Source: Desulfobacteraceae bacterium (GTDB lineage: Bacteria > Desulfobacterota > Desulfobacteria > Desulfobacterales > Desulfobacteraceae). From it: a stretch of DNA of 24,642 nucleotides. The DNA lies in NCBI GenBank assembly GCA_003354055.1, contig PIVQ01000033.1, forward strand, positions 1 through 24,642, given 5' to 3'. A program made the translations under genes and the position numbers. The notes under the pieces are model-generated. The model was not told where the DNA came from. It saw nothing but the letters and a program-made list of their open reading frames with translations, and made no database searches. Below, piece by piece: positions 8,562 to 24,642 of this stretch (position 1 is the first letter of the stretch; each line of letters begins with the position of its first letter).

Positions 8562-9284
8562 TCAGTCCAGAAGAGAGCCGGAACTCCGCCGTTTGGAAGA
8601 AACACTCTGGCCGATGACCCATCCCAAAAGCAATACCCCGACCCCTGCCAGGAACCATTTGATCATGCCGGTTCTGAACAGGTGGCTGGTTTCCTTTTCC
8701 AGTCTGGTGATTTCAGCGGACAGTTTTTGATTTTCAGCTATTAGATTTTTGTTCTGCTCAAGAGTGCCGGTCACATCCTTGGATGCCTCTGTGAGTTTGT
8801 TAAAGGATTCTTTAGCCTTTTTTAACTGGGCGTCCAGGCGTTTGTTTTCCTGTTGAAGCCGTGTGAGTTTCGTCTGAAGGTCAGACGTTTTTTCTCCTGC
8901 AACCGTTTTTTGGGTTGCCAGTTTGTCTTTGAAGCTGCTTGATGTCTCTGCCAAAAGCCTGAGCCGGTTCTGAAGATCAGCCTTTTCCCTGTTCAACTTA
9001 TCAATGATCTGGGTTTTGGGCATCTCAAACACCACAAATTGTTTGTCGACCCACCCCTGTTCTCCGGATAACAGGGAAACTTTATAAAATCCGTTTTCTT
9101 CTTCCAGAATGTTTAAGGGGGTGTCGCTTCTCAGGGTTTGGAGCACGGAGTAATTGGCTCCCGGGCCTTCCCTGAAGGTGAGAATCAGCATGTCAGAGAC
9201 ATATGCGGTTTTGGCCTGGGAATACGATGCTGCAAGACCGATTAAAAGGGCAACTGCCCATATCCCTGTGAAGAATTTTCTCAT
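8562..9284 (-). CDS. SH3-domain envelope protein with coiled coil and C-terminal membrane anchor (TIGR04211-like)
   Basis: A 240-residue exported protein. Residues 1-24 form a signal peptide (MRKFFTGIWAVALLIGLAAS, then YSQA). A bacterial SH3 domain follows (about 26-90: AYVSDMLILTFREGPGANYS, GWVDKQFV). Then comes a long heptad-rich coiled coil (about 95-200: DKLNREKADLQNRLRLLAET and ENKRLDAQLKKA). One transmembrane helix (WFLAGVGVLLLGWVIGQ, about 210-226) and a basic Ser/Arg tail finish the protein. This order matches the 'SH3 and anchor domain' family related to E. coli YgiM. SH3_3 domains of this kind often bind peptidoglycan or envelope partners; the precise role is unknown. AGGAGG lies 12 bases before the ATG. 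It is divergent from the DAC-like gene, sharing a gap that contains a palindrome at 9399-9414. Confidence 0.85.
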   Translation of the reverse strand: MRKFFTGIWAVALLIGLAASYSQAKTAYVSDMLILTFREGPGANYSVLQTLRSDTPLNILEEENGFYKVSLLSGEQGWVDKQFVVFEMPKTQIIDKLNREKADLQNRLRLLAETSSSFKDKLATQKTVAGEKTSDLQTKLTRLQQENKRLDAQLKKAKESFNKLTEASKDVTGTLEQNKNLIAENQKLSAEITRLEKETSHLFRTGMIKWFLAGVGVLLLGWVIGQSVSSKRRSSGSLLD

Positions 9285-9449: not shown

Positions 9450-10892
9450 ATGAATCAGAATTCTTATAAAAAATTATGCATTGCCAATATCCTTAACGGG
9501 GTCTCGGACGGATTGTATAAGTATTCAAACCCCAGCCGCGTGGCCCTTTTGTTTGCACCGGGGCCGGATGATCCCATCCAGGTTTTTGATCCTCAGGATT
9601 TACTTCGTGGACATGAGTCCAAACTGGAGGAGGTGTTTATCACCAATGAGGACATCTGGCGTGTGCGGGTAAAACAGCGGATCAATTCCCAACCCAGGGA
9701 CTACTTGATACCTGACCGGGATCTGGATATGTCGGGTCTGATTTCCTTTGCCGGTGCCTGCAGTGAGTTTTTTTACCAGATCTGGTTTACGGAACATCAT
9801 CCGGATCTCTGCTCTATCCGGCCGACGGAGAAATGGCTTGAACAGGCAGCCACCCTTCTGGCCCATGATTATAACTCCCGTAATACCCCGATCAACTCTT
9901 CGGATTATGTATTAAAAAATTATGCGCTTCAGGCCATTGCCGACCATCTGGTGGATGAACGAAATCAGAATCTTGGGTTTGACACAAAGATACAGATTCC
10001 CAGCATCCTTAACCATATTCTGGCCATATCGAAGACAAAGGAAGAAGGGGCCTGGGCTCGGGGTATTTTATTTTTTACAGATCCTCAGACCATCAACAAT
10101 ATTGATTTTTTGACAAAGATTCAACGTCATGAGCGGCCATTGGTGAACAATATCAAGCATATCCGAAAATTGCTGGTGGGTGTGGAACGCTCGGACAGAA
10201 AACTTGTATCCGACGGGAACACCATTATCGGTATCACAGATGCCGATGTGCCTGAATATGCCATTGCTGCCCATTTTAAGGGAGATTACGGCTTTCTTCG
10301 TATGGGAAGCCAAACGGTGGCCTCCTTTTCCGATGGTAATTTCCATTCATCTACCAGAGAGGCTAAAATGGTTGAGCTGGAAGAGATCCTTCTGGATTCC
10401 AACCTTCCTACCGAAGCGGCCGGCACCCTGTTTAATGTGATATCCGGACTGGTGCATAAGGCCGGTCATGCCCGCCACGGCTGTACTCTGGTCATTGATA
10501 TGAACGAAACGCCCCTGACATTGTCCGGTCATGTGCTGGAGCCGCCTTTAACCCTTCTGGAACCCAAAAATTTTGATTTGGCCATGGCCTTAATGCGTAT
10601 TGACGGTGCTGTGCATCTGACCACCGATACCCGGATCCACGGATTTGCCTGTCTACTTGACGGGAAGACCATATCCTGGGAGAATATGGCACGGGGCGCA
10701 AGGTATAATTCCGCCCTAAGATTTTCCGCAGCCACCCCCAAGGTGATTGTGGTGGTGGTGTCGGCAGACCGGCCGGTTTCAATCATTTATAATGGTATTG
10801 AACTGAATGCATTCTGCCGCTGGAAACCGGTATATCAATATATGCCTGAAATTATAACCCTGAAAAAGCATCTGAACGGAGTTTTAATATGA
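9450..10892 (+). CDS. Diadenylate-cyclase-like (DAC/DisA_N) protein with N-terminal sensor-type domain, variant active site
   Basis: A 480-residue soluble protein. The C-terminal about 150 residues resemble the DAC fold that makes c-di-AMP: GCTLVIDM (about 344), then IDGAVHL with the DGA motif (385-387), then GARYNSALRFSAATP followed by VIVVVVSADRPVSIIYNG. In canonical enzymes (DisA, CdaA) the second motif is GTRHR; here it reads GARYN (Arg418-Tyr-Asn), so two of the three RHR residues and the preceding Thr differ. The N-terminal about 320 residues are not a domain I recognise with certainty; they occupy the place of the 'DACN' sensor domains described for proteobacterial DAC proteins. Start: the ATG at 9450 has AGGCGG about 11 bases upstream; a GTG at 9423 is also open but has no ribosome site. 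Its stop overlaps the next gene (ATGA). Family membership is likely; catalysis is unproven. Confidence 0.68.
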   Translation: MNQNSYKKLCIANILNGVSDGLYKYSNPSRVALLFAPGPDDPIQVFDPQDLLRGHESKLEEVFITNEDIWRVRVKQRINSQPRDYLIPDRDLDMSGLISFAGACSEFFYQIWFTEHHPDLCSIRPTEKWLEQAATLLAHDYNSRNTPINSSDYVLKNYALQAIADHLVDERNQNLGFDTKIQIPSILNHILAISKTKEEGAWARGILFFTDPQTINNIDFLTKIQRHERPLVNNIKHIRKLLVGVERSDRKLVSDGNTIIGITDADVPEYAIAAHFKGDYGFLRMGSQTVASFSDGNFHSSTREAKMVELEEILLDSNLPTEAAGTLFNVISGLVHKAGHARHGCTLVIDMNETPLTLSGHVLEPPLTLLEPKNFDLAMALMRIDGAVHLTTDTRIHGFACLLDGKTISWENMARGARYNSALRFSAATPKVIVVVVSADRPVSIIYNGIELNAFCRWKPVYQYMPEIITLKKHLNGVLI

Positions 10893-11188
10893 CACACGAT
10901 CACGGACATTCCCATAGCCACGGACATTCCCATGACCATAGCCATTCCCATGATCACGGCCACTCACGTGAGCCTGTCAAAGAGATGTCCATGGAAGATA
11001 AATTACAGACCCTTTTTTCCCATTGGATTGATCATAACGACAGTCACAAGGATAATTTTGTTTCCTGGGCAGCCAAGGCCAGAGAAGCCGGTCTCGAAGA
11101 TGTAGCCGCATCTTTGGAACAGGCCGGCAGCTTGTCCAGGCAAGTAACCGGAAAACTTAGGGAGGCCCTGGCCAGACTCAACGGCTAA
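10889..11188 (+). CDS. Small protein with alternating-histidine metal-binding tail
   Basis: 99 residues. The first 26 contain His at every odd position from 3 to 25 (12 His interleaved with Gly, Ser and Asp), a pattern seen in nickel, cobalt or zinc-binding chaperones and transporters. The rest is a compact helical domain (MSMEDKLQTLFSHWIDHNDS, then KDNFVSWAAKAREAGLEDVA) that resembles the small domain (DUF8180-like) often joined to His-rich tails; this family call is from memory of the pattern. The start codon overlaps the upstream stop by ATGA, implying translational coupling with the DAC-like gene; the gap to the HD-GYP gene is 19 bases. It is not a transporter: no membrane helix is present. 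Likely role: metal buffering or delivery, perhaps to the metal-dependent enzyme downstream (inference). Confidence 0.82.
   Translation: MTHDHGHSHSHGHSHDHSHSHDHGHSREPVKEMSMEDKLQTLFSHWIDHNDSHKDNFVSWAAKAREAGLEDVAASLEQAGSLSRQVTGKLREALARLNG
10901..10933 (+). repeat. 18-bp-period tandem repeat inside the His-rich gene
   Basis: CACGGACATTCCCAT occurs at 10901-10915 and again at 10919-10933, followed by degenerate CAT/CAC units to about 10967. This is a coding repeat that could have expanded by replication slippage and could vary in His count between strains. Confidence 0.7.
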
Positions 11189-11207
11189 CCCCCCGGGAGA
11201 GACGCCC

Positions 11208-12803
11208 ATGGTTCGACCAAAGCAGGAGCACCCCCCCGCAGGGAATGCCAGCGGGAATGCCACTGAAAAAGTCACCGGATATTCAAACCATCTCATTGAT
11301 CTGTGCCTGGCCCTTTCCAGAGAAAAGGACCTGACCCAGCTTTTGGATCTTATTGTGTCCAAAGCAAGGCAACTGACCAATGCAGAAGCCGGCAGCCTTT
11401 ATATGGTAGATGAGGACGAGCTGAGCTTTGAGGTTCTGCAAAATGAACCCTTGGGTATCTATTATAAAAAACAGGAAAAGACCGCCCCCCCCATGCCATC
11501 GGTTCCCCTGAAAAAAGAGGGGGAGCCCAATCTTGCAAATGTGTCGTCCTGTGTGGCCAACACAGGACTGCCCATTCATATTGAAGATTTATATGCCCCA
11601 GGACAGCGGGTGTTCTCAGGGGTGCGTACCTGGGATAAAAGTTCCGGGTTCAGGTCGGTTTCCATGTTGGCCCTCCCCTTGATCGGCTATAAGGGGGAAG
11701 TGGTGGCCGTGCTCCAGCTTATTAACCGGAAAAATGACAAAACAGGTGAAATTCAGGCCTTTAAGCCTTCGGATCTCCATGTCATGTCAGCCATTGCCTC
11801 CCAGGCTGCCGTGGCCATTGTAAAGGTCAAGCTGATCAATGATCTTCAGATCCTGATGTACTCTTTTGTTAAGGCCATTGCCTGGGCGGTTGATGCCAAA
11901 TCCCATGTGACGGGGGAACATATAAACCGGGTGGCCGGATTGACCATGAGGATTGCCCATCTGGTGAATGACACTGAAACCGGCCTGTTTAAGGATATAC
12001 GGTTTAGTAACGACAATCTCGATGAGCTGAAGTATGCTGCCTGGATGCATGATGTGGGCAAAATTATCACCCCCGGACATCTGATTGAAAAGTCTAGAAA
12101 ATTAGAGAGCATTTTTGATGGGATGGCGGTAATTGAGCAGCGGTTTGCGGTCATTAAAATGAGTGTGGAAATCCAATGGCTGAGAGATGGAAAGAGCGAT
12201 GGTGTATCTGAAAAAGAACTGAACCGGACATTGGTAAAGATTGACGATGATTATCAATTTCTTGTCCAGTGTAATAATGCCTCTAAATTCATGAATGACG
12301 CAGACATGACGCGGCTTACCCGGATCCGAAATCGGACCTATGTCACCAGGGATGGAGCCTCCTCGCGCTGGCTTACGGAAGAAGAATTTAAACTGCTCGG
12401 AATAAAAAGGGGTAACTTAAGTTCCAAGGAAAGAAAAGTAATTGAAGACCATGCCCTGATGACCCGGAAAATTTTAGATAATATTCAGTTCCCCAAACAT
12501 CTGTCAAAGGTACCGGTATTGGCCTCCTGTCATCATGAAAAGCCCAATGGTAAAGGATACCCTGGCGGATTACAAGATAATGAGATCCCCCTTCAGGCAA
12601 AAATTATGGCTATTGCCGATATCTATGAGGCCTTGACTGCCAAGGACAGACCTTATAAAAGACCCATGGAACCATCCGAGGCTGAGGCCATTCTCCTTAA
12701 GATGAAGGAGAACAATGAAATTGACGGTGCATTATTTGATCTGTGCCGGGAAAGTGACATTTTCAAACATTTACCGGCATCTGATGATTTCCTAGCTGAT
12801 TAA
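11208..12803 (+). CDS. GAF-HD-GYP cyclic-dinucleotide phosphodiesterase
   Basis: 531 residues, soluble. A GAF sensor domain spans about 25-205 (LTQLLDLIVSKARQLTNAEA, VLQLINRKN). It is followed by an HD-GYP domain: GEHINRVAGLTMRIA (His238), AAWMHDVGKI (His281-Asp282), CHHEKPNGKGYPGGL (His442-His443, GYP 450-452) and AIADIYEALTAKDRPYK. These are the metal ligands and signature of the family that hydrolyses c-di-GMP; related HD enzymes hydrolyse c-di-AMP. About 100 extra residues (roughly 303-402) sit between HD and the helix that precedes HHE, where canonical HD-GYP proteins have only a short link. The start ATG follows GGGAG by 8 bases. Nineteen bases separate it from the His-rich gene, and 53 from nagZ. 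Given the DAC-like gene in the same run, c-di-AMP is a candidate substrate (inference). Confidence 0.9.
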   Translation: MVRPKQEHPPAGNASGNATEKVTGYSNHLIDLCLALSREKDLTQLLDLIVSKARQLTNAEAGSLYMVDEDELSFEVLQNEPLGIYYKKQEKTAPPMPSVPLKKEGEPNLANVSSCVANTGLPIHIEDLYAPGQRVFSGVRTWDKSSGFRSVSMLALPLIGYKGEVVAVLQLINRKNDKTGEIQAFKPSDLHVMSAIASQAAVAIVKVKLINDLQILMYSFVKAIAWAVDAKSHVTGEHINRVAGLTMRIAHLVNDTETGLFKDIRFSNDNLDELKYAAWMHDVGKIITPGHLIEKSRKLESIFDGMAVIEQRFAVIKMSVEIQWLRDGKSDGVSEKELNRTLVKIDDDYQFLVQCNNASKFMNDADMTRLTRIRNRTYVTRDGASSRWLTEEEFKLLGIKRGNLSSKERKVIEDHALMTRKILDNIQFPKHLSKVPVLASCHHEKPNGKGYPGGLQDNEIPLQAKIMAIADIYEALTAKDRPYKRPMEPSEAEAILLKMKENNEIDGALFDLCRESDIFKHLPASDDFLAD

Positions 12804-12856: not shown

Positions 12857-13849
12857 ATGACACAATTATCCATAGAAGAGATGGCCGGCCAGCGGTTGAT
12901 GCTGGGCTTTGACGGTCTGACTCTTAATAACCAGTTAAAGCATCTGATCAGGAACTATAAGGCCGGCGGTATTATTCTGTTTAAACCCAATATTGACTCC
13001 CCTGAACAATTGAGAACGCTTTGCGCTGATGCAAGGCGGTTTGCCCTTGACTGCGGTCTGCCGGATCTTTTTATTGCAGTGGATCAGGAGGGTGGTGTGG
13101 TGGCTCGGCTGCGTCACCCCTTTACCGAATTCCCCGGAAATCCCCATGTTCACACCAGGGAACAGGCTGATGAATTTGCCAGGATTACTGCAGATGAACT
13201 TCTGGATATGGGAATCAACATGAACATGGCTCCTGTCCTGGATGTTGTGCCCAAAGGTGTGGACAGCATCATGAAAGAGAGGGTGTTTCCCGGAGATGAT
13301 ACCCTGGTGGCGGAGCTGGGTACTGCGATGATTCAAGGCTTCCAGGAGAAAAGGATTATGGCTGTGGCAAAACATTTTCCGGGTATAGGCAGGACTGTCA
13401 AGGATTCACATTTTTTTCTGCCAATTCTGGATGCCGATCTTGATACTCTCAGGAAAAGTGATATCAAACCCTTTGAATCGGCCAGGGATGCTAAGGTGTC
13501 AGGGGTTATGCTCTCCCATATTTCTTATCCCCGGCTGGACAGTACTTGGCAGGCCAGCCTATCCCCTGCCATTGCCCGGGATCTACTCCGCCGGGATCTT
13601 AAGTATGAAGGGCTGGTCATGACCGATGACCTGGATATGAAGGCCATCTCCCATGATATGGAGACCTGTATCCGTCAGATCATGATTTCAGAGATCGATT
13701 TGGCCTTGGTCTGCCACTCCGGACCCAATATTCAGAAAGCCCTCGATGAGGTGGTCAGGCTGTTGGAAACAGATGAAAACCTGTTTGTTTTGGGTAAAGC
13801 TTCAGTGGAAAGAATTTTGGCTGCCAAGGAACGATTTCTAAAAGGATGA
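12857..13849 (+). CDS. nagZ: Beta-N-acetylhexosaminidase, glycoside hydrolase family 3 (NagZ-like)
   Basis: Removes terminal N-acetylglucosamine from 1,6-anhydromuropeptides in cytoplasmic peptidoglycan recycling. The 330-residue single TIM-barrel length fits NagZ. Visible motifs: AGGIILFKPN, IAVDQEGGVVARLR, MGINMNMAPVLDV, VAKHFPGIGRTVKDSH (Asp183-Ser-His185 dyad) and LVMTDDLDM (Asp257 nucleophile). The usual KHFPGHG reads KHFPGIG, so one conserved His is Ile; the catalytic DSH loop His is retained. No signal peptide is present, consistent with a cytosolic enzyme. No Shine-Dalgarno is seen before the ATG. It is the last gene of the co-directional run and converges with tsaD (46-base gap). Confidence 0.9.
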   Translation: MTQLSIEEMAGQRLMLGFDGLTLNNQLKHLIRNYKAGGIILFKPNIDSPEQLRTLCADARRFALDCGLPDLFIAVDQEGGVVARLRHPFTEFPGNPHVHTREQADEFARITADELLDMGINMNMAPVLDVVPKGVDSIMKERVFPGDDTLVAELGTAMIQGFQEKRIMAVAKHFPGIGRTVKDSHFFLPILDADLDTLRKSDIKPFESARDAKVSGVMLSHISYPRLDSTWQASLSPAIARDLLRRDLKYEGLVMTDDLDMKAISHDMETCIRQIMISEIDLALVCHSGPNIQKALDEVVRLLETDENLFVLGKASVERILAAKERFLKG

Positions 13850-19193: not shown

Positions 19194-19270
<77 letters not shown>

Positions 19271-19749: not shown

Positions 19750-19826
<77 letters not shown>

Positions 19827-23827: not shown

Positions 23828-24642
23828 ATGAAAATTATTACTACACACAAAGGGGCTGATTTTGATGCCCTGGCAAGCCTTGCGGCAGCCACCCTTGTCT
23901 ATCCCGATGCCAAACCCGTACTTCCGGGCTCAATAAATGGCAATCTCAAAGCCTTTTTATCCATCCACAAAGATCTTTTTAATTTTTATTCGCCAAAGGA
24001 AATTGATCTTGCGGATGTTGACACACTTATTGTGGTGGATACCCATACCTGGCAGCGAATTGACCAGCGGCTTCTGCCCCTGGCCAAAAAAGAGGCCTTA
24101 CAGATTATTGTCTGGGATCATCACAGCCAAGGTGATATGGAGGCTAAGGAAAAATATGTAAGGGAAACCGGTGCCACAGTTACCATGCTGGTCCAGGAAA
24201 TAGAGAAACTAAGAAAACTCATAACGCCAATCCAGGCCACCTTGTTTCTCATGGGGCTGTACGAGGATACCGGTAATCTGTCCTTTCCCTCCACCCTTGC
24301 CGAAGATGCCTATGCGGCCGGATTTCTTCTGGATAGGAGAGCGGACTTAAATATTCTGTCCACCTTTTTGAAACCGGCATACGGCAAGAAGCAGAAGGAT
24401 ATTCTCTTTGAGATGATTCAGTTGGCCGAGCGCAGCGAAATACCAGGCGGATTTACCATGAGTCTGTCGGAGATGGAAGTCAGCGGCCGGGTTCAGAATC
24501 TGGCCATGGTGCTTCAGATGTACAAGGAGATTGTGAATGTAGATGTGGCATTTGGAATTTTCAAGGACTCGGAGCGGGACAAGTGCATGGTCATCGGCCG
24601 AAGTGATGTTGATGAGGTCAACATCGGCTTTATGATGCGGAG
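23828..24642 (+). CDS. DHH phosphoesterase family protein, N-terminal part (probable DHH-CBS-tRNA nucleotidyltransferase type)
   Basis: An open frame of about 271 codons running off the right edge. The N-terminus MKIITTHKGADFDALASLAA carries the first DHH metal motif (HxxxDxD variant). VVDTHTW, IVWDHHSQGD (the DHH motif) and GLYEDTGNLSFPST follow in proper order, and the last about 70 residues lead into the DHHA1 part. In Deltaproteobacteria such N-termini are often joined to two CBS domains and a poly(A) polymerase/CCA-adding domain; KGADFDA and YEDTGNLSF fit that group, but the diagnostic parts are beyond the window. Stand-alone nanoRNase or c-di-AMP phosphodiesterase of the DHH-DHHA1 family is the alternative. 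GAGG four bases before the ATG. Confidence 0.82.
   Translation, partial: MKIITTHKGADFDALASLAAATLVYPDAKPVLPGSINGNLKAFLSIHKDLFNFYSPKEIDLADVDTLIVVDTHTWQRIDQRLLPLAKKEALQIIVWDHHSQGDMEAKEKYVRETGATVTMLVQEIEKLRKLITPIQATLFLMGLYEDTGNLSFPSTLAEDAYAAGFLLDRRADLNILSTFLKPAYGKKQKDILFEMIQLAERSEIPGGFTMSLSEMEVSGRVQNLAMVLQMYKEIVNVDVAFGIFKDSERDKCMVIGRSDVDEVNIGFMMR

Follow-up and report, generated by a model that had tools for sequence, protein, structure and literature searches.

Diadenylate cyclases of the CdaA/DacA and DisA types make cyclic di-AMP (c-di-AMP) through a diadenylate cyclase (DAC) domain. Passages of a paper on Bacillus subtilis CdaA describe both a DGA and an RHR motif as marks of the active site (PMC8573169). 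A further architecture, DACND-DACNH-DAC, is already in Pfam, and the family is known. Its proteins were reportedly classified by Galperin in 2023. We analyzed a member encoded in a 24,642-nucleotide stretch from a Desulfobacteraceae bacterium (GCA_003354055.1, contig PIVQ01000033.1, positions 1 to 24,642 of the forward strand; this whole stretch is called the window). The window protein has the domain order and length of the family, with Pfam scores of 221 bits for DACND, 91 for DACNH and 46.5 for DAC, in that order along the chain (cut-offs 27). It shares the DGA-bearing DAC domain with CdaA/DacA and DisA but belongs to proteins that read R-(F/Y)-N where those enzymes read R-H-R, and DACND and DACNH replace the membrane part of CdaA. 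Its gene is followed by those for a small His-rich protein and a GAF-HD-GYP phosphodiesterase:

9450..10892, + strand: DACND-DACNH-DAC protein, 480 amino acids, clade B of the DACND family (Pfam PF21749, PF21750, PF02457)
10602..10610, + strand: DAC-site DGA motif (residues 385–387), invariant in a 49-row alignment
10701..10709, + strand: R-Y-N, residues 418–420, at the place of the canonical R-H-R; R418 and N420 invariant
10889..11188, + strand: small His-rich protein, 99 amino acids, with an alternating-His tail and a domain of ~66 residues; homologs labelled PF26551
11021..11047, + strand: H45-x3-H49-x3-H53, a candidate metal site outside the tail, invariant in a 38-row alignment
11208..12803, + strand: GAF-HD-GYP phosphodiesterase, 531 amino acids (Pfam GAF, HD_5; motifs intact)

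The DAC-like and His-rich genes overlap by ATGA, and the HD-GYP gene begins 19 bases after the His-rich gene. An earlier note on this DNA, made from the letters alone, had the gene coordinates, the overlap and the spacing all correct, and it rightly took the first product for a DAC-family member, the second for a protein rich in His and the third for an HD-GYP enzyme, whose motifs are intact. We take ATG 9450 as the start of the DAC-like gene rather than GTG 9423, a possible alternative, because nearly all homologs are 480 amino acids long, which is the length from 9450.

The R-x-N motif of the DAC site

The altered site is strictly conserved. DGA, R418 and N420 are invariant in the alignment of 49 DACND proteins, and R-(F/Y)-N with DGA upstream was found in 62 of 62 aligned DACND proteins drawn from both groups, A and B (37 with Y and 25 with F). 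Two split genes (L041 and L057) and 11 further loci were left out of the DACND protein alignment. The window protein has 1632 homologs at E ≤ 0.001 among 7993 candidates scored, and DACND was present in 104 of the 291 genomes of Desulfobacteria that made up our class-wide survey. Decay of the DAC site was considered and rejected, given its strict conservation.

The 30 best-scoring PF02457 proteins of the class are CdaA-like by motif (the single one scanned also has a YbbR domain). R-H-R occurs in 29 of them and RYR in one, and because the CdaA-type set is composed in this way we regard loss of the second arginine as the change that distinguishes the families. At locus L174 the middle residue has changed naturally, and the CdaA-type protein there carries GTRYR instead of GTRHR.

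The motif extends well beyond Desulfobacteria. All seven plasmid-borne DACNH-DAC relatives, from Priestia (3), Citrobacter, Dyadobacter, Gluconobacter and Phycisphaera, have R-(F/Y/L)-N. Two of these distant genes (L188 and L190, on plasmids NZ_CP029730.1 and NZ_CP014690.1) lie beside genes for a nucleotidyltransferase and a patatin-like phospholipase, an arrangement like that of cyclic oligonucleotide-based anti-phage signaling systems (CBASS), and one plasmid relative adjoins a cytosine methyltransferase and a restriction endonuclease. Judged from the alignments, R-x-N marks an old sub-family. This sub-family, with its members beside CBASS-like genes, has R-x-N fixed where R-H-R is essential in the enzymes that have been tested, and its annotation as diadenylate cyclase therefore rests on no test that we found.

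One explanation is that the product of the R-x-N DACs is not c-di-AMP but another dinucleotide, cyclic or linear. The seven plasmid relatives speak for it, two of them in the company just described, and so does the anti-phage label of the nearest NCBIfam family (NF053872, DS2_3 anti-phage protein), which matched the DACNH and DAC half of the window protein at 71.9 bits, far below its cut-off of 630. However, the genes around the window DAC and its relatives are housekeeping genes and not defense genes, and we consider a different product very unlikely. No defense genes were seen alongside the DAC gene in the window, where the following two neighbors were assigned by Pfam and the others (aspartate-kinase-like, TsaD-like and PurM-like) were named by sight:

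8562..9284, − strand: SH3-domain protein, divergently oriented upstream of the DAC gene (PF08239; synteny)
12857..13849, + strand: glycoside hydrolase family 3 (GH3) protein, downstream synteny marker (PF00933)

With PADLOC the DAC protein had no match, and the other two proteins had sub-threshold-like ones (E 0.012 and 0.026). Phage records gave no match, and comparison with PHROGs yielded nothing informative. When the DAC-like protein and its profile were compared with PDB sequences, no chain reached E ≤ 0.001, the best (E 0.0041 and 0.28) being unrelated proteins.

A broader proposal treats the R-x-N DACs as a separate, wide class of DAC domain, running from Desulfobacteria chromosomes to defense-associated plasmids, which would lack the usual c-di-AMP synthesis (making another product or sensing) and would have a metal-binding partner in one Desulfobacteria clade. 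We think this unlikely; if true, such a class would join metal status to a nucleotide signal. Our literature search found no occurrence of DACND, nor, among the papers listed, of DACNG, DACNH, DACNK or DACNV, and no paper combining diadenylate cyclase and Desulfobacter. Neither the R-x-N site nor the adjoining partner appeared in the literature searched, and a 2023 review of DAC architectures may already describe R-x-N.

The His-rich protein beside the DAC gene

We compared 48 related loci, the window included, in which the DAC was at least 50% identical and carried GARYN; four of them (L002, L192, L197 and L203) have less than 1.7 kb of downstream sequence. A His-domain gene lies downstream of the DAC gene on the same strand in 37 of the 48, so the pair is more than chance, and the close joining of the first two genes described earlier is borne out beyond the source genome. 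The seven other DACND loci of the same survey have no His gene after the DAC. Three loci (L205, L209 and L211) gave no DAC match above 150 bits, and L210, where a His gene lies 125 bp beyond a fragment of DACND, was not counted.

Across the class, 122 DACND places in 104 genomes included 32 followed by a His gene within 2.5 kb and none among the 71 best-scoring. This count used 56 of the His places among the matches listed, and none of 94 further listed His places was within 5 kb of DACND. A second fragment row of G263 was excluded from the genome-wide linkage counts. In a tree of 33 group-A rows, 29 group-B rows and the 7 plasmid relatives, clade B came together with support 100/99, and the seven sampled rows without a His gene formed one sub-clade within it (100/100). 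Group A was not a single clade, and long-branch warnings attach to the plasmid relatives and to part of group A. The window protein belongs to clade B, whose members mostly have an adjoining His gene, whereas group A was not seen with one. One gain in a single DACND clade and one loss near Desulfobacter would suffice to account for the pair and would fit this tree.

A Pfam scan of the window His-rich protein returned nothing significant. The label PF26551 is common to 30 of 30 listed homologs, which align with the window protein (the labels are precomputed in the database). Proteins of this kind adjoin the DAC gene in clade B and did not do so in 20 other places fetched. H45, W46, H49, N50, S52, H53 and W60 are invariant in the 38-row alignment of the domain, and the three histidines, spaced four apart, suggest together with the tail a metal-binding helix. 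Searching the PDB with the domain gave chains of rubrerythrin type and designed coiled coils, the best at E 2e-9 to 3e-4; we read these matches as reflecting helix make-up. Four of 12 His-domain loci away from the DAC site (L138–L149) are near metal-linked genes: an FecCD transporter (L140 and L142), a corrinoid adenosyltransferase (L149) and a hemerythrin (L145). The small partner is probably metal-binding. With one clade carrying such a partner next to the DAC gene, metal control of a nucleotide signal becomes a testable idea.

The domain was found in 199 of the 291 genomes, mostly away from the DAC site. We rejected a role as an accessory of the DAC only, given this spread and the 32 of 122 DACND places followed by a His gene. 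A general metal-handling protein recruited beside the DAC would fit better than a dedicated subunit. For the same reason the suggestion that the protein tunes the metal-dependent HD-GYP enzyme was not supported, since the family is widespread and mostly unlinked to DACND. The parts of a paper on nickel in cable bacteria that bear on this speak of an RcnA loop and not of a PF26551-type His-rich protein (PMC11247825).

Proposed mechanism and its alternatives

The reading that we favor, at a shade under an even call, is that the DAC-like protein, a second, divergent diadenylate-cyclase-type protein of Desulfobacteria, is a sensor-cyclase that still cyclizes in a metal-dependent manner, probably forming c-di-AMP, and has a neighbor that buffers or reports metal, with the HD-GYP enzyme standing apart and probably acting on cyclic di-GMP (c-di-GMP). 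The N-terminal DACND and DACNH domains would sense a ligand and switch the DAC domain. The DAC site would bind ATP and most likely still make c-di-AMP with a divalent metal, and the change from arginine to asparagine may be another way to hold the phosphates. The His protein would buffer or report a divalent metal (Zn, Ni, Co or Fe) and may thereby tie the DAC enzyme to metal status. The HD-GYP enzyme most likely hydrolyzes c-di-GMP rather than the DAC product.

A number of observations weigh against this reading, some concerning catalysis and others the gene pair. For canonical DACs, changing RHR to AAA in M. tuberculosis DacA abolishes ATP binding and activity, according to the passages on that motif (PMC3328451), and the corresponding passages on M. 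bovis CdaM report that altering either RHR or DGA abolishes activity (PMC13022847). We found no R-x-N enzyme with tested activity in the literature searched. The profile match to CdaA was weak (probability 0.2, E 0.3), yet it aligned DGA on DGA and GARYN on GTRHR; because of this weakness, the motif register rests on the Pfam DAC match and on motif order. DisA, too, lacks the CdaA-type glutamates after the RHR motif and is still active, and therefore only the RHR change is telling. Since that motif reads RYN, we regard c-di-AMP synthesis by the window DAC as no more than plausible.

The replacement, in all 62 proteins, of an RHR that is essential in tested enzymes also supports an alternative in which the DAC-like protein is a pseudo-cyclase, that is, a nucleotide sensor or regulator, which might for example read the c-di-AMP that a canonical CdaA produces in the same cell. 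PF02457 was matched in 221 of the 291 genomes, and those with DACND frequently contain a strong canonical DAC too, with GTRHR where inspected. This again speaks for a pseudo-cyclase. Examples are G014, G044 and G113, which are also among the genomes that carry both group-A and group-B DACND copies. The best of three DAC matches in G010, the second genome with all three genes side by side, has E 7.5e-34, and a canonical DAC is therefore present there as well. Strict conservation of DGA and R-x-N, the latter kept in the seven distant relatives, counts against a pseudo-cyclase, as do a few genomes in which DACND is seemingly the only DAC. Four genomes (G023, G197, G219 and G252) each have one weak PF02457 match (1e-10 to 4e-16), the strength that the DACND type alone should give. 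This points to DACND as the sole DAC of these four; it may suffice there by itself, or no c-di-AMP may be used. Taking both sides together, we find a pseudo-cyclase rather unlikely. The c-di-AMP riboswitch, present in 16 of the 291 genomes, one of these with DACND, was uninformative as a guide.

As for the pair, the SH3 gene marks the syntenic site even at loci without the DAC, and GH3 comes after the DAC, His or HD-GYP gene in relatives. Eleven of the 48 loci, all alike (71–74% identical to the window DAC), have the DAC gene without the His gene. GH3 directly follows the DAC in L014 (Desulfobacter vibrioformis), L071, L074, L078 and L081, for which full neighbors were listed, and in L002. Conversely, six loci (L130, L131, L133, L134, L136 and L137) keep the His gene without a DAC. 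They have an SH3-type gene and the His gene in the usual order, with GH3 within ~2.1 kb except at L134 (SH3 and GH3 were confirmed by Pfam for L131 only), and a tblastn search for a DAC remnant between the SH3-type and His genes found no trace at these six (best E 0.16). Two further loci at or near contig ends (L132 and L135) were excluded. The DAC and His genes have been lost independently, and the pair is not obligate. The DAC gene ends in ATGA at 27 of the 37 loci with a His gene and at 9 of the 11 without one. Since ATGA is common in both settings, the overlap alone is a poor guide to coupling, and we rejected it as evidence. Away from the DAC site, the remaining 8 of the 12 His loci lack a clear metal gene as neighbor, and the His genes of L138 and L146–L148 adjoin an apparent penicillin-binding protein (by Pfam for L147 only).

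These observations bear on another view, compatible with either of the alternatives about the product, in which the pair is mere neighborhood that persists through slow rearrangement and has no shared function. At this site either gene can be found alone, and the tree is compatible with one gain and one loss. We gave this view more weight, and our favored reading less, because the ATGA overlap is equally common without the His gene. Against it, the pair persists at DAC identities as low as 50% (L083 and L200) and amid other surrounding genes (L008 and L012), and the exact 4-base overlap is the first start in 20 of the 37 pair loci. We judge mere neighborhood possible, though doubtful.

The HD-GYP gene and the remainder of the window

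The HD-GYP protein scores 60 for GAF and 108 for HD_5 in Pfam and has intact motifs (HDVGK at 281, HH at 442–443 and GYP at 450). Its best PDB match is 4mcw, the PmGH enzyme (E 4.1e-19); both have GAF and HD-GYP with the motifs kept. Unlike 4mcw, the window protein has its HD half split by an insertion of ~110 residues common to relatives in the class, and its HD-to-GYP gap is 161, compared with 53 in an HD-GYP protein of the ordinary kind from L093. A family of split-HD GAF-HD-GYP proteins (gap 156–171) is found in the window and at L019, L021, L089–L093, L095 and L096.

The earlier note proposed a self-contained module: a maker of the messenger, an HD-GYP enzyme that breaks it down, and a metal-binding protein that tunes this breaker. 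The neighborhood comparison divides this proposal. The DAC–His pair is kept, as described above. The trio mostly is not, with one further genome that has it and a third that nearly does. HD-GYP comes straight after the pair at only 2 of the 48 loci (again counting the 4 with less than 1.7 kb downstream), namely the window and L010, where the HD-GYP protein is 70% identical. In L008 a relative (53%) lies one opposite-strand gene away at a contig end, and a fragment from a different contig of G008 fits the end that this copy lacks. The His gene follows the DAC without HD-GYP in 34 of 37 loci, and L001, the closest of 18 genome loci (DAC 93% identical), has the order DAC, His and then GH3, without HD-GYP there.

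The class-wide data point the same way. A full-length or long HD-GYP relative was found in 74 of the 291 genomes (E ≤ 1e-60, with the best 5 candidates scored per genome). In the 26 genomes with both DACND and a full-length relative, the two lie within 20 kb, and side by side, only in G010, the source of L010, which makes 1 of 104 DACND genomes. The 18 genomes average ~12 matches to the HD-GYP protein in ~4.2 Mb, and a rough chance estimate places HD-GYP within 2 kb at ~1% of loci, or ~0.6 in 48. Two were seen, and these are mutually orthologous, so the trio exceeds chance weakly.

In favor of a single module, the three genes form one run in the window and L010, the HD-GYP motifs are intact, and in the 18 genomes and the class-wide survey HD-GYP relatives at 53% identity or more were found only in L010 and L008, which puts the close orthologs near a DAC in 3 of 3 cases with the window included. 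We raised the weight of the module because these close orthologs occur only near the DAC, and we still consider it highly improbable against the counts given above. As a conserved unit it was rejected, on the 2 of 48 loci and 1 of 104 DACND genomes. The distribution fits either a late gain or a link confined to a few related lineages and repeatedly lost, and we regard HD-GYP as a lineage-specific neighbor and the trio as mostly neighborhood.

Two observations concern the rest of the window. Two transfer RNA (tRNA) genes of equal score lie at 19194–19267 and 19750–19823, each followed by a similar reading frame, as if this tRNA unit had been duplicated. A DHH-domain gene at 23828–24640 is truncated at the window end; DHH proteins include c-di-AMP hydrolases and nanoRNA hydrolases.

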